From positions 1 to 64,000 of the forward strand of contig NZ_JASAOI010000031.1 in assembly GCF_029953285.1 (NCBI RefSeq): 64,000 bases of DNA. The letters run 5' to 3'. The position numbers and the translations under genes were made by a program. This document shows positions 47,707 through 60,527 of this stretch, in pieces (within the stretch, counting starts at the first letter, position 1; the number at the start of each line of letters is the position of its first letter). The notes under the pieces are model-generated. The model ran no database searches and had not been told where the DNA came from. It was given only the letters and a program-made list of their open reading frames with translations. The stretch comes from Yinghuangia seranimata. Its GTDB lineage: Bacteria; Actinomycetota; Actinomycetes; Streptomycetales; Streptomycetaceae.

Positions 47707-48285
47707 ATGCACTGCCCCTTCTGCCGACGGCCCGACAGCCGCGTCGTCGACAGCCGCACCACGGACGACGGTGCGGCCATCCGCCGCCGCCGCTCCTGCC
47801 CCGACTGCGGCCGCCGCTTCACGACCATCGAGTCCGCCTCGCTGACCGTCGTCAAGCGCAGCGGCGTCACCGAGCCGTTCAGCCGCGACAAGATCGTCAA
47901 CGGCGTCCGCAAGGCATGCCAGGGCCGACCCGTCAGCGAGGACGCCCTCGCCCAGCTCGGCCAGCGCGTCGAGGAAGCCGTCCGCGCCACCGGCTGCGCC
48001 GAACTCAGCACGCACGACCTCGGACTCGCCATCCTCGGACCGCTGCGCGAACTGGACGAAGTCGCCTACATGCGCTTCGCGTCCGTCTACCGCGCCTTCG
48101 ACTCCCTCGAGGACTTCGAAGCCGAGATCGCCCTGCTGCGCACCGAGTCCGCCGGCACCGCCCCCGAGGGCGCCGCCGCGGAAACCTCCCCCGAAACGAG
48201 GGGATTGGTTTCCGCCTTGGATGGACAACCACAACAGCTGCACCCACCGAAGCCCGCGCCCGGCGCCGGATCGGGAACGGGCTGA
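47707..48285 (+). CDS. nrdR: Transcriptional repressor NrdR
   Basis: 192 residues. A zinc ribbon of four cysteines (MHCPFC and CPDCGRRF) binds DNA; the following ATP-cone ([24 protein letters not shown]) senses ATP/dATP. The core ends near residue 150; the 40-residue Pro/Gly-rich tail is extra. ATG 47707 has AGGGGAGG upstream. It is the first gene of the nrdRJ operon, with two NrdR boxes upstream, so it regulates itself and nrdJ. Confidence 0.96.
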
Positions 48286-48401
48286 CGCACACCGCAGCCC
48301 CCATACCGCACGACACACCAGGTGGAACGAACGACGGACCACCCGATCGGGCATGCCGGAATCCCCGTCACGCCCGCGGCGTTGTTCAGGAGGAGATACG
48401 T

Positions 48402-51245
<2,844 letters not shown>

Positions 51246-51312
51246 AACCAGGCGGAATTGCATCGGATAACAGCATCCGAAGTAGCCGACGCACGTAGCT
51301 GACCAGCAGCTC

Positions 51313-51347
51313 ACGAAGGGGATCGACCATTGGTCGGTCCCCTTCGT
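51313..51347 (+). terminator. Terminator of nrdRJ
   Basis: ACGAAGGGGATCGACC (51313-51328) pairs with 51332-51347 across a 3-nt loop, with one G:U pair. It is 67 nt after the nrdJ stop and upstream of the next gene. Confidence 0.85.
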
Positions 51348-51414
51348 CGTGTCCGTGACCAGGGCGGCGTAAGCTGCCCGACATGATCAAGAGAATCGAG
51401 TCCTCCGTCCGCCG

Positions 51415-52518
51415 ATGAGCGAGACGGCCGGGACGCAACCGCCCGGATCGCAGATATCCCTCTTCGAACACGCGCTACAACTCCACCTGCTGGCCCCGGA
51501 CGAGCCACTGCCGCGGGACGGGGCGCCATACCCCGACGATGCGTTGCACCGTGGTCGACCTCGGCCGGAGCCTGAGGATCGGCACACCGTCGGCAAAGAC
51601 GCCGCCCTCGTCTTGGACGCGCATTTCGCCCGTACCTCTGCCCTTCCCGGCGAACTGGTCGGCGCTTTCAACGATGTCTACGCCCCCATTTATCCCAACG
51701 CGCGCATCGCTGCGGCGGCTGAGCGCGCGGAAAGACGGCGTGTTCACGAAACGGGCCGATGGCTGGTCCGATACGGAACCGATCGTGACTCGGTCACCGT
51801 GGGGCTCGCCCTGGTCGCTGCCGTCGGAACGGTCGAAGACGTGCGACTGATCCAAACGATCGGCCTGCTGTCCAACCAGTTCGGTCCCCTTGCAGCGCAC
51901 GCCTTGGAACGACTGCCTGGAAGCACCGACGCCCTGCTCTGGCTCGCCGATCGAGTCGCCGGCTGGGGACGGGTCTCCGTCGTAGAAGCCCTCTGCCGAC
52001 TCGACGACCCCGTCGCCCAACCCTGGCTCCTCCGCAGGGCGTGCGACGGCGGTTTCCTCAACGCATACTTCGTTGGCAAGATCGCCCAGGTCACGCGCCT
52101 TCACGAAGTCGTCACCGGAGCCGAGGTGGATGACGAGATCGTCGACCACACCGGCAGATTGCTCTTGGTGATGACTTTCAGTCAAGGCATGGGCGTCACC
52201 CTCTCGGGTTATCCCCACGCCGAGGCGGTACTGGCTGCACATCTGCGTCACCTTGAGCAATTGGGGCCTTCCGCCACCCGGTACTGCACCGCTGCGTGGC
52301 TGGCGAACAGCCTGGGGGAACACGGTGATGCCGGTTCGATAGGGCCAGTTCAGCGATGGCAGCCCTACCGGGACAACTATCTGGCTCTCCTCGCGCGTGA
52401 CGACTGGTGCGAGGTGGCGAGGGATGCTCTCGCGGCGAAGGACCCAGGCATCGCCCGGCTCGTAGGGACGCCGTCAGGCCGTCGGCTGCCGGCGTTCGCG
52501 AACCGGCCGAACGAGTGA
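51415..52518 (+). CDS. Hypothetical helical protein of low-GC3 island
   Basis: 367 residues, no signal peptide or membrane helix. It starts MSETAGTQPPGSQISLFEHALQLHLLAPDEPLP. Repeated helical pairs (SVTVGLALVAAVGTVEDVRLIQTIGLLSNQFGPLAAHALERLPG, DALLWLADRVAGWGRVSVVEALCRLDDPVAQPWLLRRACDGGFLNA) suggest a HEAT-like solenoid; I recognise no catalytic motif. Similar proteins of unknown function exist in Streptomyces. In the first 75 codons about 28% end in A/T, well above the neighbours, so it may have been acquired. No clear ribosome-binding site precedes ATG 51415. It precedes the homing-endonuclease gene in the same orientation. Confidence 0.65.
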   Translation: MSETAGTQPPGSQISLFEHALQLHLLAPDEPLPRDGAPYPDDALHRGRPRPEPEDRHTVGKDAALVLDAHFARTSALPGELVGAFNDVYAPIYPNARIAAAAERAERRRVHETGRWLVRYGTDRDSVTVGLALVAAVGTVEDVRLIQTIGLLSNQFGPLAAHALERLPGSTDALLWLADRVAGWGRVSVVEALCRLDDPVAQPWLLRRACDGGFLNAYFVGKIAQVTRLHEVVTGAEVDDEIVDHTGRLLLVMTFSQGMGVTLSGYPHAEAVLAAHLRHLEQLGPSATRYCTAAWLANSLGEHGDAGSIGPVQRWQPYRDNYLALLARDDWCEVARDALAAKDPGIARLVGTPSGRRLPAFANRPNE

Positions 52519-52592
52519 ACTATATTGTCTGATAACGGATTTACCGGTCATTGGATCGACGTCTTGTCGGTCCGGGTCGGTGGTCTCGATGC

Positions 52593-53861
52593 ATGGAGAA
52601 CACACCGAACAGCCCGACTGCTTTTGACCCGTGCGGCGCGATGGGCGGATTCCTCGGCAATCACAAGTTGTGGACCGACCGCGGCCTGATCGGCGCGGAA
52701 GACGCATTCGTTCGCTCGACCCGAGGCGATCACGTCCAAGCGGCCTGCGCATTGGATCGGCTTCGTCCCTGGCCGACATCGGAAGTGCGGTTGACGGAAT
52801 TGCGTGTGCGGCCTTTGGGCGTACGCGCTGCGGTGCAGGTGCGTTTTGCCGACGGCTCCGCTGTGGCGGGCTCGGCGTGGCAGCGTGTCTGGACCCGGAA
52901 TCGTGGCTGGGTTCCCTTGTGCAGGCTGGTTCCATCCGATGTGGTCGAGCGAGCCAATCTGGTGGTGCCCCGTGCGTGCGCTACCGCGTTGCCGCCTCCA
53001 TCGGACTTGCTCGCCACGACAGCGCGTCAGGTGAAGGAGCTGTACCTGCCGACTTGCTGGACCACACCGTTGTGCCACTACCTCGGATGGTTGGTGGGGG
53101 ATGGCTGCCTGACGCCGACGGCGGTAGTGACGGTGTACGGCTCAGCGGCCGATCAGTCGGTGGTGCTGCCGATGCACCGCCACCTCATCGAGGGCATCGC
53201 CGGCAACTCGCTGACGCCAAGCGTGCAGGCCAACGGGACGCTGCAGTTGCGGCTCACGCGCCGCCATCTCGTCGCATATCTGCGGGAGTTGGGCTTCTCG
53301 ATGGCGCGCGCCGCCGAAAAGGTTGTGCCTCGTGCGATCGCGGAAGCTCCGAGGGATGCTGTCGCGGCCTTCCTCAGCGGTCTCTTCGATGCTGACGGAT
53401 GCGTGGTCAACCAGTCCGGCAATCAGACGCGATACGTGGGATTGGGGAGTTCCTCAGAGCTGCTCGTGCGTGATGTGCAGCAGTTGCTCGCCTCGTGTTT
53501 CGGTATCCGGTCGCGGATCTACGTGTGTGATTCCAGCAATCGGACGTTCGCATACACGCGTAAGGGAGATGGCAGGAGCGTCGTGTATCAGGCGCGTGGT
53601 CCCCTGCATGATCTCCGGATCACCGGCGAGGGTATTCGGACCTTCCACGAGGCCATCGGTTTCCGGCTGCCGGCGAAGCAGGAGCGTCTCGAGGTGATCC
53701 TGGCCACGGGACGCTTCTACCGCAAGGACCCCGCCGTGCGCGTCGCCGCGATTGAGGATTTCGGCCGTCACCCCGTATTCGCGTTGGCGACGGCGTCTGA
53801 AACGGCCTGTGTCGTAGGCGGGAATATCGTGCCAGGGGAACGGATCAACCGCGGTCTCTGA
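52593..53861 (+). CDS. Free-standing LAGLIDADG homing endonuclease with degenerate intein motifs
   Basis: 422 residues from ATG 52593 (TTG 52551 also in frame). Two LAGLIDADG motifs are intact: YLGWLVGDG (163-171, Asp170) and FLSGLFDADG (260-269, Asp266 and Asp268). Intein-like ends flank them: KLWTDRGLIGAEDAF (25-39) resembles block A, FADGSAVAGSAWQRVW...GWVPLCRLVPSD (85-116) block B, and HPVFALATASETACVVGGNIV (393-413) block F. Yet the block B TxxH reads S94-A-W-Q97, there is no Cys/Ser at the expected first position, and no HN-Cys at the C-terminal junction, so splicing should be dead. Codon usage is AT-richer than the neighbours. A strong bidirectional terminator follows. Confidence 0.85.
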   Translation: MENTPNSPTAFDPCGAMGGFLGNHKLWTDRGLIGAEDAFVRSTRGDHVQAACALDRLRPWPTSEVRLTELRVRPLGVRAAVQVRFADGSAVAGSAWQRVWTRNRGWVPLCRLVPSDVVERANLVVPRACATALPPPSDLLATTARQVKELYLPTCWTTPLCHYLGWLVGDGCLTPTAVVTVYGSAADQSVVLPMHRHLIEGIAGNSLTPSVQANGTLQLRLTRRHLVAYLRELGFSMARAAEKVVPRAIAEAPRDAVAAFLSGLFDADGCVVNQSGNQTRYVGLGSSSELLVRDVQQLLASCFGIRSRIYVCDSSNRTFAYTRKGDGRSVVYQARGPLHDLRITGEGIRTFHEAIGFRLPAKQERLEVILATGRFYRKDPAVRVAAIEDFGRHPVFALATASETACVVGGNIVPGERINRGL

Positions 53862-53888
53862 GCAGCACTCTCGGTTGGGCTGAGCCAG

Positions 53889-53924
53889 TGCGGCCCTCGG
53901 GGGGAGGTTCCTCCGAGGGCCGCA
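53889..53924. terminator. Bidirectional terminator
   Basis: TGCGGCCCTCGG (53889-53900) pairs perfectly with 53913-53924 across a 12-nt loop. It separates the endonuclease gene from the convergent LLM gene. Confidence 0.85.
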
Positions 53925-53930
53925 GGTGCG

Positions 53931-54812
53931 TCAGATTCCCAACGCCTCGCGGGTGCGGTCTAGTTCGGTGGGGTCGGTGGTGGTGGGGACGAGGAAGAGT
54001 TCGTCGAAGCCTGCGTCGCGGACGATGTCGACGGCGGTGGCGAGGGATTTGGGGGAGTGGGCGCGGGCGCCTTCGGCGACGGCTTCGGCTATTTCGGGGC
54101 CGAAGATCTTGAGGTAGTCGAAGGCGTAGGTGTGGAGCCGTTGTTCGGCGTCGTCGCCGAGGGCGTACCAGAGGCTGGTCGAGAGGTGGGGTTTGTCGGT
54201 GCGGCCTGCGTCGTGCCAGGCCGCGCGGACGCGGTCGGCGACTTCGGCGAGGGCTTCGGGGTCGGGGTAGGCGATGGCGGTGCCGTCGTCGACGCCGGTG
54301 GCCCAGTGGGCGGCGCGGGCGGTGGCTTTGGGGCCGATGGCGCCGGCGATGAGCGGGGGGCCGCCGGGCTGGACGGGCGGTGGGCCGACGGGGTCGAGGT
54401 CGGGTTCGGGTGGGGTTCCGGCCCAGGTGGCGCGCATGACGGCGACCTGGTCGTCGAGGCGTTGCCAGCGTCGGTCGAAGGGGGCGGAGACGGCGCGGTA
54501 GTCCTGTTCGCGGCCGCCGACTCCGACGCCGACGGTGAGGCGTCCGTTGCTGAGGCGGTCGACGGAGGCGAGGTCTTTGGCCATGCGGACGGCGTTGTGC
54601 GACGGCAGCACGATGATGGTGGTGCAGAGCCGGACGCGTTCGGTGAGTGCGGCCGCGGCGGCGAGCTGCACGGTCATGGAGTGGCTGGTGTAGGCGACGC
54701 GTTCGGGGACGGCGAGGCTGGACCAGGGGCCTTCGTCGATGCCGCGGCACCAGCGGAGTACTTCGTCGCGCCCGTGGGGGAGCATGGTCGGGAGTGTCAT
54801 GGCGATGTCCAC
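53931..54812 (-). CDS. LLM-class, probably F420-dependent oxidoreductase
   Basis: 293 residues. A luciferase-like TIM barrel: MDIAMTLPTMLPHGRDEVLRWCRGID, RVRLCTTIIVLPSHNAVRMAKDLASVDRLSNGRLTVGVGVGGREQDY, and a C-terminal DELFLVPTTTDPTELD. The short size, the HN-A-V-R-M-A-K helix and GVGVGGREQDY suit F420-using members of actinobacteria. Substrate unknown. It is on the minus strand, upstream of the peptide deformylase gene by 128 nt of leader that contains the def terminator region. Its codon usage is normal for the window, so the unusual island ends before this gene. Confidence 0.85.
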   Translation of the reverse strand: MDIAMTLPTMLPHGRDEVLRWCRGIDEGPWSSLAVPERVAYTSHSMTVQLAAAAALTERVRLCTTIIVLPSHNAVRMAKDLASVDRLSNGRLTVGVGVGGREQDYRAVSAPFDRRWQRLDDQVAVMRATWAGTPPEPDLDPVGPPPVQPGGPPLIAGAIGPKATARAAHWATGVDDGTAIAYPDPEALAEVADRVRAAWHDAGRTDKPHLSTSLWYALGDDAEQRLHTYAFDYLKIFGPEIAEAVAEGARAHSPKSLATAVDIVRDAGFDELFLVPTTTDPTELDRTREALGI

Positions 54813-54854
54813 GCCGCCGGATGCTGCCTGATCGGGCGTGCGAGAACAATGGCC

Positions 54855-54886
54855 GCGCGGGGTCGGCTCGTGGGCCGGCCCCGCGC
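54855..54886 (-). terminator. Terminator downstream of def
   Basis: GCGCGGGGTCGGC (54855-54867) pairs with 54874-54886 with one G:U pair and a 6-nt loop. It lies 55 nt past the def stop. Confidence 0.75.
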
Positions 54887-54940
54887 CTCTGCCGTGAGGC
54901 GGGGGTCAGCCGGCCCCCGCGTCTGCTGTGCGGCGGAGGG

Positions 54941-55715: not shown

Positions 55716-57440
55716 TCACGGGAGCAGTGCGGAGGCCCGTGCGGTGACGGTGACGGGTCCGGGGGTGGTGACGGTGACGCGGGTCCAGTCGTCGGTTCCG
55801 CCGGTGATCCTGGTGCCGGGGTGGTCGGTGGTGAACCACGCGGTGTGGTGGATGCGCACGGTGAAGGTGCCGGGGGCGTCGGCGACGAAGGTGAAGCTGG
55901 ACGGGCTGAGTTCGGTGAGCCTGCCGGGGCCGTCGAGGAGCGGGGTGGGGTCGGTGAGTTCCCAGATCCGCCAGTGCGCGTCGGACCAGACGGGGCGGAG
56001 CCAGTCGGTGCCGGCTTTGAGGATCTTGGCTTCGCGGCGGGCGGATTCGTCGAGGGGGACGTCGGGGAGGGCGATGTAGCGGACGCCGGTTTCGCGGAGC
56101 CAGGCGTGGTATCCGGCGGCGTCGAGGCGGGGGTCGTAGAGGGCGGCGTTGCGGTCGCGGTCGAGTTGGCGTTCCCAGCCGCGGGCGAGGGGCTGGTGCT
56201 CGGCGACGTAGACGCTTTCCCAGTGGCCGCGGGTGAAGGGGATCTCGACGCGGCCGACGGGCTGGTTGTGGCTGCGGAGGAAGGCGAGCATGCCGGTGTA
56301 GTAGCTGGTGTCGTCGGCGGCGCTGTCCTTGAAGTCGTGGGCGACGGCGATGCTGGCGGAGGAGAGTTGCCAGGCGAGCAGGGGGACGGCGAGCAGGGCG
56401 ACGAGGCGGCGGCGGCCGAGGGAGAGCAGGACGACGGCGGCGAGGGGTCCGGCCATGACTTCGCCGAGGCGGGCGACGTTGCCGCCGACGGCGCTGGGGA
56501 CGAGGTAGAGCACGGTGCCGGAGACGGCGTAGAGCCACAGGAAGCGGCGTGCGGTCTGGTGGCTGGTGGGGAGCAGGTAGAGGCCGACGGCGGCGAAGCC
56601 GAGGATGGCGCCGAGTCGCCAGAAGGGGAAGCCGAAGTCGCCGCCGCTGGGGAAGGCGAGGGCGGTGCCGAGGCCGACGGCGGCGGGGGCGAACGCGAAG
56701 CGGGTGGCCCAGACGCGTTGGGCGGGTACCCAGGCGAGCGCGGTCATGAGGAGGAACGCGCCGGCGAGGGGGCTGGCGAGGCCGCTGAGGAGGGCGGCGG
56801 AGGCGGCCCACAGGGGGTGTGCGCTGCGGGCGGCGAGGACGGCGAGGAGGGCGGCGGCAACGCCGAGGACGAACGGTGTGCGGCCGATGAGGTATTCGAC
56901 GCAGATGATGGCGGCGAACCAGAGGGCGGCGATGCGGCGGGGCAGTCCGGGGCTGCCGACGCGGAGCCGACCCCAGGTCCAGGCGGCGAGGACGCAGGAC
57001 AGTGCGGTGAGGGTGCGGGTGCCGATGCCGCCGGCGAGGGTGGGGGTGATGACGCTGTAGCCGGGGAGGAGGTGGCCGCCGTACCACTGGTTGTTCCACA
57101 GGACGGCGCCGTGTTCGCGGGCGAGCCAGGCGCGGAACTGCTGGGCGGGCCAGTCGGGTCCGGAGAGTCCGGTGACGGTGATGAGGCCGACGAGGGCGAC
57201 GGTGAGCAGGTAGGGGCGGTCGCCGAGGAAGATCGCGGTGGCGCGGAGCCGGGGGGTGCGGGCGCCGGGCGGGACGCGCGGCGGCGTCGGGTCGGCGGGC
57301 GCGGGGTCGGTGTTCCGCGGTGCGGTGCGGGCGGCGTGCGCTGTGCGGGTCTTGGGGGGCGCGGCTGTGGTGCCGGGCGGCGGCGCGTGGTCGGGTCCGG
57401 TGGTGGGGCCGCCGGTTCGCGGTTCGTCCGTCGCGCTCAT
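55716..57440 (-). CDS. Multi-pass membrane protein, possible GT-C-type glycosyltransferase (paralogue A)
   Basis: 574 residues from ATG 57440. A Pro/Thr-rich cytosolic leader of about 60 residues is followed by ten or more membrane helices and then a soluble C-terminal domain of roughly 200 residues with beta-rich ending (PGTFTVRIHHTAWFTTD, TRITGGTDDWTRVTV). Signature shared with its paralogue at 58920-60527: SGPDWPA, LWNNQWYGGHLLPGYSV, TLTALSC, IPFTRGHWESVYVA and the SPLLDGPGRL-like motif. The architecture recalls lipid-linked-sugar glycosyltransferases, but I cannot identify catalytic residues. Substrate unknown. Confidence 0.75.
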   Translation of the reverse strand: MSATDEPRTGGPTTGPDHAPPPGTTAAPPKTRTAHAARTAPRNTDPAPADPTPPRVPPGARTPRLRATAIFLGDRPYLLTVALVGLITVTGLSGPDWPAQQFRAWLAREHGAVLWNNQWYGGHLLPGYSVITPTLAGGIGTRTLTALSCVLAAWTWGRLRVGSPGLPRRIAALWFAAIICVEYLIGRTPFVLGVAAALLAVLAARSAHPLWAASAALLSGLASPLAGAFLLMTALAWVPAQRVWATRFAFAPAAVGLGTALAFPSGGDFGFPFWRLGAILGFAAVGLYLLPTSHQTARRFLWLYAVSGTVLYLVPSAVGGNVARLGEVMAGPLAAVVLLSLGRRRLVALLAVPLLAWQLSSASIAVAHDFKDSAADDTSYYTGMLAFLRSHNQPVGRVEIPFTRGHWESVYVAEHQPLARGWERQLDRDRNAALYDPRLDAAGYHAWLRETGVRYIALPDVPLDESARREAKILKAGTDWLRPVWSDAHWRIWELTDPTPLLDGPGRLTELSPSSFTFVADAPGTFTVRIHHTAWFTTDHPGTRITGGTDDWTRVTVTTPGPVTVTARASALLP

Positions 57441-57540
57441 GGCGGCCGAGTTTTCCAGACCCGGGGGCCTTTCGCGCAAATCGCGTGGGGCGGGTGGGGC
57501 TGGCGTGTTGTGTCCCGGGGTGGGTGCGCCGGGTGTTCCG

Positions 57541-58919: not shown

Positions 58920-60527
58920 TCATTCCAGGATTTTCTTCAGGTCCGTCTTGATGGTGACGGGTCCTGGGGTGGCGACGGTGATCTGCGTCCACTCGTCCTT
59001 GTCGTCGGCGCGGATGTGGACGCCCTCGCGGTCCGCGGTGAACCAGAACGTGGGGTGGATGCGGATCCGGAAGACGCCGGGCTGGTCGGCGACGAAGGTG
59101 AACTCGGACGGGGTGAGCCGGGTGAGCCGGCCGGGCCCGTCGAGCAGCGGTGAGGGGTTCTGGACCTCCCACACCTGCCAGTGCTTGTCGGACCAGACGG
59201 GTTTGAGCCACGGGACGCCGGACTTGATGAGGTCGACCTCGGGCTGTGCCGACTTGTCTATGGGCACGTCGGGGAGGGCGACGAACCGTACGCCCATCTC
59301 CTCGACCCAGGCGCGGTATTCGGGGCCGGTGAGGATGGGCTTGTAGAGGACCTCGTTGACGGAGCGGTCCATCTGTCGGAGCCAGCCGCGTGCGAGCGGC
59401 ATCTTGTCGGCGACGTAGACGCTTTCCCAGTGGCCGCGGGTGAAGGGGATCTCGATGCGGCCGAGCGGCTGGTTGGCGGTGCCGAGGTACTTCATGACGT
59501 CGGCGTAGTACTCGTACTTCTCGCCCTTGCTGTCCTCGCGGTCGTGGTTGATCGCGATGGTGGCGGACTGGAAGCCCCACACGAGCAGCGGGATCGCGAG
59601 GATGACGACCAGGCGGCGGCGGCCGAGGGAGAGCAGGACGATCGCCATGATCGGGCCGGCGATCATCTCGCCGAGGCGCGCCAGGTTGCCGCCGAGGGAG
59701 GTCGGTACGAAGAAGAAGACGACCGCGGACGCGGCGTAGAGCCACAGGAAGCGGCGCGCGGTGCGTTGTGTGGTGGGCAGCAGCCACAGGCCGACGGCGG
59801 CGAAGCCGATGATGGGCCAGAACCGCCACCACGGGAACGGGAACGTGCCCTCGTCGGGGAACAGCAGCGCGGTGACGAGGCCGAGTGCGGCGGGGCCGAA
59901 GGCGAGCCGGGTGGGCCACACACGCTCGTGGGGCACCCAGGCGAGGGCGGCCATCAGCAGGAACGCGGCGGAGAGCGGGCTGGCGAGGCCGCAGACGAGG
60001 GCGGCGACGCCGGTCAGCACGAGGCGCTTGTTGCGGGCGGCGAGCAGCGCGAGGAGGCCGGCGGCGACGCCGAGGGCGAACGGTGTGCGGCCGATCAGGT
60101 AGTCGACGCTGGCCATCACGGCGAACCAGACGGCGCCGGTGCGGCGGGCGAGGTCGTTCTTGCCGACGTCGAGGCGGGACCACGCCCACGCGGAGACGAT
60201 GCAGGACAGCGCGGTCAGCGTGTGGGTGCCGATGGCGCTGGACAGTACGGGGGTGACGACGCTGTAGCCGGGGAGCAGGTGGCCGCCGTACCACTGGTTG
60301 TTCCAGAGGATGGCGCCGTGGTCGCGGACCAGCTGGGTGCGGAATATCGCGGCGGGCCAGTCGGGTCCGGACAGTCCGAGCAGGATGATGAGCCCGATCA
60401 GGGCTCCGGTGATCAGGTACGGCCGGTCGGCTATCGCGAGGCCGAAGGCGGCGAGGCGTGTGCGCAGTCGACCGCGGGTGGGTCGGGGCGTGCCTGCCGT
60501 GGGCGGCGCGGGGGCTTCGGTCGTCAC
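58920..60527 (-). CDS. Multi-pass membrane protein, possible GT-C-type glycosyltransferase (paralogue B)
   Basis: 535 residues. Homologous along its whole length to the protein at 55716-57440: SGPDWPAAIFRTQLVRDHGAILW, NNQWYGGHLLPGYSV, VDYLIGRTPFALGVAA, IPFTRGHWESVYVADK, PSPLLDGPGRLTRLTPSEFTF. It has the same plan of a short leader, about ten helices and a soluble C-terminal domain, but a shorter N-terminal leader (about 30 residues). The two paralogues flank a hypothetical gene and the LOG gene. ATG start at 60527. Activity unknown. Confidence 0.77.
   Translation of the reverse strand: MTTEAPAPPTAGTPRPTRGRLRTRLAAFGLAIADRPYLITGALIGLIILLGLSGPDWPAAIFRTQLVRDHGAILWNNQWYGGHLLPGYSVVTPVLSSAIGTHTLTALSCIVSAWAWSRLDVGKNDLARRTGAVWFAVMASVDYLIGRTPFALGVAAGLLALLAARNKRLVLTGVAALVCGLASPLSAAFLLMAALAWVPHERVWPTRLAFGPAALGLVTALLFPDEGTFPFPWWRFWPIIGFAAVGLWLLPTTQRTARRFLWLYAASAVVFFFVPTSLGGNLARLGEMIAGPIMAIVLLSLGRRRLVVILAIPLLVWGFQSATIAINHDREDSKGEKYEYYADVMKYLGTANQPLGRIEIPFTRGHWESVYVADKMPLARGWLRQMDRSVNEVLYKPILTGPEYRAWVEEMGVRFVALPDVPIDKSAQPEVDLIKSGVPWLKPVWSDKHWQVWEVQNPSPLLDGPGRLTRLTPSEFTFVADQPGVFRIRIHPTFWFTADREGVHIRADDKDEWTQITVATPGPVTIKTDLKKILE

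Follow-up and report, generated by a model that had tools for sequence, protein, structure and literature searches.

An intact free-standing putative LAGLIDADG nuclease of apparent NrdJ-intein descent beside a recoded, intein-less nrdJ gene in Yinghuangia seranimata

How does a protein that looks like an intein come to stand as a gene of its own beside a ribonucleotide reductase gene that has no intein, and what might it do there? The question is raised by a 64,000-nucleotide stretch of the Yinghuangia seranimata genome (contig NZ_JASAOI010000031.1, positions 1 to 64,000; hereafter, the window). Its plus strand carries nrdJ (48402..51245), encoding an intein-less vitamin B12-dependent ribonucleotide reductase of 947 aa (NF005122 PRK06556, 1623 bits), and a free-standing ORF of 422 aa (52593..53861), with an ATG start and no internal stops. 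A preliminary description, made from the sequence alone, had read this ORF as an intein that left its host protein but kept its nuclease, had placed it 1.3 kb past nrdJ and had pointed to a recoded patch within that gene. We measured 1,347 bp from the nrdJ stop to the start of the ORF, with another ORF (51415-52518) in between. The nuclease ORF has a GC content of 0.645, against 0.727 for the window, and was found in a single copy in the source genome (search at E 0.001).

The protein matches LAGLIDADG_3 of Pfam (E 5.7e-19). The two intact LAGLIDADG motifs of the first description are both present, HYLGWLVGDG at residues 162-171 (53076..53105, plus strand; including D170) and FLSGLFDADG at residues 260-269 (53370..53399, plus strand; including D268). 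In a structure alignment with 59 inteins (60 aligned sequences), both acidic residues and the core lysine, K243, occupy positions with a conservation of 90% or more. The AlphaFold2 model (pLDDT 90.9, pTM 0.91) has intein homing endonucleases as its nearest solved folds (7qsu, 1dq3 PI-PfuI, and PI-SceI), and it matches whole inteins that contain a homing endonuclease (TliVMA, PI-PfuI, and PI-SceI). Two motifs with their acidic residues and a double-motif fold are the features of a LAGLIDADG homing endonuclease, and the protein is predicted to cleave DNA.

The structural matches also included WhiA (3hyi, at rank 27), which has a LAGLIDADG fold and is thought to be a domesticated DNA-binding protein. 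The ORF could likewise be a domesticated DNA-binding protein with a regulatory role near nrdJ, the patch being its binding or regulatory site, and the single intact gene in the genome would suit this reading. Set against it are the retention of both motif acids and of the core lysine, and the distribution of the gene, unlike that of a host regulator: among 394 family genomes, its own included, only that of the window carries it (E 1e-12), with no further free-standing member in the others. In addition, no Rfam element above threshold was found in 48000-54900. Domestication in this form is in our opinion very improbable, and we treat the protein below as a putative nuclease.

To compare the domains, we aligned the window protein with its 26 nearest inteins and took columns conserved in at least 90% as near-invariant. 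The endonuclease core (residues 145-360; 53025..53672, plus strand) retained 66 of 72 such columns, compared with 25 of 58 in the N-terminal 125 residues (one of them, C14, counted across a gap) and 9 of 27 from residue 361 on. Identity to the inteins was 0.52 in the core (0.62 among the inteins), 0.30 in the N-terminal half (0.74) and 0.21 in the C-terminal block (0.84). The decayed N-terminal splicing half (residues 19-125; 52647..52967, plus strand) reads SAWQ at 52872-52883 in the place of TPNH. In the decayed C-terminal splicing blocks (residues 384-415; 53742..53837, plus strand), NHSY has become ETAC and AN|C has become PG|E, so that the intein stretch NHSYIVxGVVVAN|C corresponds to ETACVVGGNIVPG|E. 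We take these segments to be the TPNH block and the C-terminal NHSY and HN|C blocks of inteins. G19 occupies the C1 position; Cys 14, which is not terminal, can be aligned to C1 only over a 5-residue gap. The ORF ends a few residues past the last intein block. Thus, as first described, intein blocks are recognisable but their splicing residues are gone: the protein is a separate ORF and not an in-frame part of a host protein, and it has neither Cys/Ser 1, nor TxxH, nor a terminal HN followed by a +1 Cys/Ser/Thr. A core kept while both splicing halves decayed points to selection that, once splicing had been lost, acted on the nuclease alone. For a protein with no close orthologue for a codon test, this contrast makes it very likely that the nuclease has been kept by selection.

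To find its relatives, we scanned one genome per species (84,980 species) for two short peptide patterns, so that free-standing relatives with different letters at those places would be missed. The scan retrieved 75 related loci, 70 of them with titles naming Actinomycetota. All but two lie in NrdJ reading frames at residue 364, between the P and the C of ASNPCSEY (ASNP|CSEY); 69 of these 73 are flanked by NrdJ on both sides and four are truncated by a contig end. The other two are L088, which is free-standing beside nrdJ, and L096, without a match on re-test. Both junctions could be taken from 68 of the 73 NrdJ-intein loci (L060, L064, L082, L086, and L090 were excluded). In two quick trees, which included 68 and 65 inteins (in the second, the out-of-frame ends of the L088 row were trimmed), the window protein fell in an identical 28-row clade together with 26 NrdJ inteins and L088, with SH-aLRT values of 91 and 87. 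A larger 32-row set holding it had a support of 98 in each tree, although its membership differed between them.

The window protein is therefore nested among NrdJ inteins, as common descent with inteins would have it, and the NrdJ inteins at ASNP|CSEY (e.g., L022, L039, and L027) form one protein family with it. The best identity of its nuclease core to them is 61% over 156 columns (L023). They differ in that they lie in frame inside NrdJ with their splicing residues, whereas the window ORF stands apart and has lost splicing. Given the insertion site of these relatives and the placement in the trees, the ORF almost certainly descends from an NrdJ intein that occupied ASNP|CSEY and lost splicing. 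The reading as an intein that left its host protein but kept its nuclease is borne out by the nesting, the dead splicing residues and the conserved core, and the nearest relatives are not inteins of an unrelated host protein but NrdJ inteins inserted at the recoded codons.

Many of the NrdJ genes among L022-L092 carry interruptions, presumably several inteins, at two to four positions that recur between loci (near residues 158, 364, 552, and 662). At one locus (L081:1498-3840), two LAGLIDADG-bearing insertions are apparently about eleven NrdJ residues apart (CSEYMFLDDTA), one at the 364 site and the other just past it.

What sets the window nrdJ apart is its codon usage around this very site. 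The gene is presumed to be the host and target gene of the nuclease, and the insertion point of the sister inteins, the presumed cleavage region, falls at 49490..49491 (plus strand), inside a recoded patch of codons 354-389 (49461..49568, plus strand), in which the changed bases run over 106 bp (49463-49568), from 28 bp to the left to 78 bp to the right of the insertion point. In a gene with a GC3 of 94.5%, 15 of these 36 codons end in A or T, compared with 36 of 911 elsewhere, and none of 2,000 permutations gave an equally dense cluster. We compared the codons with those of 29 relatives, out of 39 with a match, which have 0 to 5 A/T-ending codons in the same stretch. Private codons, i.e., those used by no relative sharing the residue, made up 12 of the 31 testable in the patch and 10 of 746 elsewhere (Fisher 8e-13). 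Twenty patch codons differ from the family modal codon, 16 of them synonymously, with M368L, N372D, S373T, and D388E as the non-synonymous changes. When compared with the same-genus nrdJ, synonymous identity drops from 0.84 before the patch to 0.36 within it and returns to 0.79 after it; the gene is thus native on both sides, without a long co-conversion tract. Hence, the recoded patch of the earlier account is real and covers the point at which the sister inteins are inserted.

Some features of the patch weigh against a role in self-protection, which the preliminary description had proposed. From -28 to +78, the window nrdJ has 22 changes and the next highest relative 15. Within 15 bp on either side of the insertion point, it differs from the family modal sequence at 6 of 30 bases, and this core alone is not an outlier, since the relatives range from 0 to 8. 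The patch reaches +78, past the usual length of a recognition site, which for HO and VDE is given as about 24 bp in the part of Coughlan et al. (2020; PMC7282813) used here. We found no donor for it among plasmids (5 records, at most 80% identical), among phages and viral contigs, or among 296 genomes of the phylum, where 69 had a match and the best non-self one, at 84%, came from a family genome.

Could such a patch be unrelated to the nuclease, as a short recombination tract or a local mutation cluster that arose by chance? In some relatives, nrdJ does contain clusters of rare or A/T-ending codons at other places, often at the gene start; examples lie near codon 166 in L122 and near the start in L113, L099, and L100. 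The window cluster, however, spans the exact insertion site of the closest relatives of the ORF. Moreover, the recoded 24-mer was found without mismatch in 1 of the 394 family genomes, that of the window, which is also their sole carrier of the nuclease, so that two features each seen once in 394 genomes coincide. Five further family genomes match the 24-mer with three mismatches; these are near ordinary sequences. Coincidence is the least probable of the explanations that we considered, and we regard a connection of the patch with the intein or nuclease site as highly likely on these comparisons.

A connection can take more than one form. An intein, or an intein-bearing allele, might have invaded nrdJ, bringing foreign flanks by co-conversion, and later been lost; the patch would then be a footprint and not a shield and the free ORF a relic or by-product, with no need for the nuclease to act on nrdJ now. 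In favor of this, A/T-ending codons are more frequent next to the intein in intein-bearing alleles, at 0.162 in the last 10 codons before it and 0.107 in the first 26 after it, against 0.081 far from it (61 loci; Wilcoxon p 0.004 and 0.036), so that the pattern can arise without any need for protection. The first 15 patch codons also match the flanks of L039 and L034 at 39 of 45 bases, while 29 intein-free relatives reach at most 35. Over the whole patch, however, intein-bearing alleles are no closer than intein-free ones (best 86/108 in both). Besides, if recombination with an empty allele had removed the intein, ordinary flanks would be expected to have been restored as well, and a core conserved against decayed splicing halves is unlike a mere relic. 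Both the invasion-and-loss history and the idle ORF that it implies therefore seem unlikely to us, though less so than chance or domestication. We prefer to see in the patch a rewritten target that probably protects the resident nrdJ from the nuclease, a judgement drawn from comparison with other alleles.

In the same-genus genome G001, the nrdJ gene (L098) has 4 private codons of 33 at codons 354-389 against 10 of 738 elsewhere (Fisher 0.002), and the densest stretch of rare codons in the gene, with 7 in 36, likewise overlaps this site (permutation p 0.027). It has I at position 370, where the window and 28 other relatives have L. There is no nuclease next to this nrdJ, which is possibly a resistant allele following past exposure. 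Together with the flanks of intein-bearing alleles and the matches of the first 15 codons, these private codons suggest that the window patch may partly reflect past intein traffic.

The neighborhood of the nuclease also differs from that in three close relatives. In the same-genus G001 and in G005 and G020, whose nrdJ genes are the next best matches, 0.1-0.26 kb separates nrdJ from the peptide deformylase gene (pdf), compared with 3.7 kb in the window (51246..54937), where the interval holds an ORF of unknown function, the nuclease and a luciferase-like gene. The first of these, of 367 aa (51415..52518, plus strand), lies between nrdJ and the nuclease, has a low GC content (0.66 against 0.727 for the window) and gave no match in Pfam, NCBIfam, PADLOC, or PHROG. 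A homologue 81% identical, located on the linear plasmid NZ_CP108786 of Embleya sp. NBC_00888, adjoins an IS30 transposase gene, and the ORF is a possible passenger of the nuclease insertion. A hairpin 3' of nrdJ (51313..51347, plus strand; inverted repeat I4) is a probable transcription terminator, and consequently the nuclease is probably transcribed separately from nrdJ. Besides nrdJ, the genome encodes a class I reductase small subunit, and another genome of the genus, G002, lacks a close nrdJ (best 25% identity), so that cutting nrdJ need not be lethal. Farther along the window, two adjacent long minus-strand ORFs (55716-57479 and 58920-60527), which may be paralogues, show cross-matches of about 74% DNA identity with a region of G001.

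A second free-standing copy came from outside the family. In Ornithinimicrobium tianjinense (L088), the remnant of a related nuclease starts 226 bp past an intein-less nrdJ. It is spread over three frames, with a core 58% identical to that of an intein and PPEE replacing TPNH, by which the splicing His is lost. The two loci are thus alike in having an intein-derived nuclease without the splicing His just downstream of an intein-less nrdJ; a sister relation between the two proteins was neither established nor rejected by the trees (support 2 in the second). They differ in that the Ornithinimicrobium nuclease is frameshifted and its nrdJ un-recoded, with none of 36 codons at the intein site ending in A or T. 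A dead nuclease with an ordinary site and an intact nuclease with a rewritten site are what protection would lead one to expect, on two data points.

The window ORF is the one intact free-standing instance in this analysis. In a search of genomes of the class, 10 of 394 matched the nuclease (E 1e-20), and the nine non-self matches lie in frames of 779-2258 aa, two of which start at a contig end (one, G140, was opened). Likewise, a search at E 1e-5 gave matches in 15 of 150 relatives, most of them weak (29-37% identity) and in long frames (again, G140 was opened). We also considered phages, plasmids, and viruses as sources of the nuclease and discarded them, given that they provided only distant matches: 18 phage records at 26-29% identity, 4 plasmid records at 26-30% and 26 loci in viral contigs at no more than 36%. 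Of the two plasmid matches opened, one is a 3.9 kb CDS between nrdI and nrdF, taken for that reason as an NrdE with an intein, and the other a 2.2 kb CDS annotated as a LAGLIDADG homing endonuclease.

The reading that we consider fairly probable from these comparisons is that of a nuclease freed from an nrdJ intein, which would still recognise its old target and whose host would be spared by a rewritten nrdJ. An intein at ASNP|CSEY would have lost splicing, kept its nuclease and become an independent gene downstream of nrdJ. The freed enzyme would most likely still recognise the ancestral intein target, the active-site region of nrdJ, and its own host would escape cutting because this 106 bp stretch has been rewritten, mostly synonymously. 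The patch itself may have arisen by repair of such a cut from a divergent nrdJ. An ordinary nrdJ allele meeting the DNA of this strain would be cut, and repair from the carrier would copy the recoded patch into the recipient; with resection reaching far enough, the nuclease gene, 3.0 kb from the patch, would be copied as well. That nuclease and patch move as a unit in this way is somewhat less assured than the protection, but still rather likely. The process would be intronless homing, as already proposed in the preliminary description; a nuclease gene set apart from its presumed cut site would suit it, while no transfer event was observed. The accompanying term, collaborative homing, was not appropriate, since it requires an intron or intein without a nuclease at the cut site, and the nrdJ of the window is uninterrupted.

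Stand-alone homing endonucleases are believed to arise from the nucleases of introns and inteins and to give rise to them in turn, but the steps are rarely visible. Here, the ancestor (an NrdJ intein), the place of its insertion, the nuclease set free from it and the rewritten target can all be followed at one locus, and target recoding is seen in nature in a form that would make a nuclease tolerable to its genome. If our reading is right, the locus is the natural counterpart of a gene drive with a recoded target, and the broken copy of Ornithinimicrobium would mean that this step is repeated, or spreads, among actinomycete families and that decay of the nuclease ends the cycle.

Among known systems, the WHO elements of yeasts fit better than intronless homing in general. 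As described in the sections of Coughlan et al. (2020; PMC7282813) consulted, they are free-standing intein-like nucleases downstream of FBA1, whose allele in carriers is divergent and resistant, and HO is a domesticated relative of them. In the same source, Who6 cuts FBA1 allele-specifically, and its survivors have asymmetric conversion tracts from the divergent FBA1, with arms of 5-14 bp and 106-306 bp, which rendered the allele resistant. As far as these sections go, WHO elements and the window ORF share a free-standing, intein-like architecture that lacks both exteins and the C-terminal intein motif, a location downstream of a conserved metabolic gene whose allele differs at the cut region (with nrdJ as the probable target, and divergence judged between species, not strains), and broken copies at the corresponding place in other genera. 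The patch, of 28 and 78 bp with native flanks, is what a repair event of this type might leave by analogy. On the other hand, WHO elements belong to yeasts and this one to a bacterium. The published elements have a C-terminal zinc finger, of which Pfam found none in the window ORF, and duplicated 3' fragments of the host gene, whereas the sole match of NrdJ within the 64 kb is its own gene. Their host gene is replaced to its 3' end, while the window nrdJ is native past the patch. Furthermore, the intein nearest to HO and WHO, VDE, resides in a different gene, VMA1, and the nearest relatives of the window ORF are inteins of the same gene and the same site. On balance, we lean slightly towards a prokaryotic element of the WHO class at its founding step, in which the intein left NrdJ but stayed beside nrdJ and the host was kept alive by the rewritten target. 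An independently arisen bacterial case would make the class general and easily testable in vitro.

In the openly licensed PMC literature, we found no bacterial intein-derived free-standing nuclease beside a host gene with a rewritten target; the nearest hint was the mention, in a phage survey (PMC3653736), of intein traces in hypothetical proteins near the reductase genes of Lactococcus phage 949. Intronless homing itself is known from phage T4, whose SegF, SegG, and MobE cut hundreds or thousands of bp from their own genes according to the portion of PMC2988022 used. These enzymes are GIY-YIG or HNH nucleases of a phage, whereas the window ORF encodes an intein-derived LAGLIDADG protein on a bacterial chromosome. 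They have in common with it a stand-alone nuclease gene and a cleavage site, putative in our case, at a distance, and MobE, like the window ORF, adjoins ribonucleotide reductase genes.
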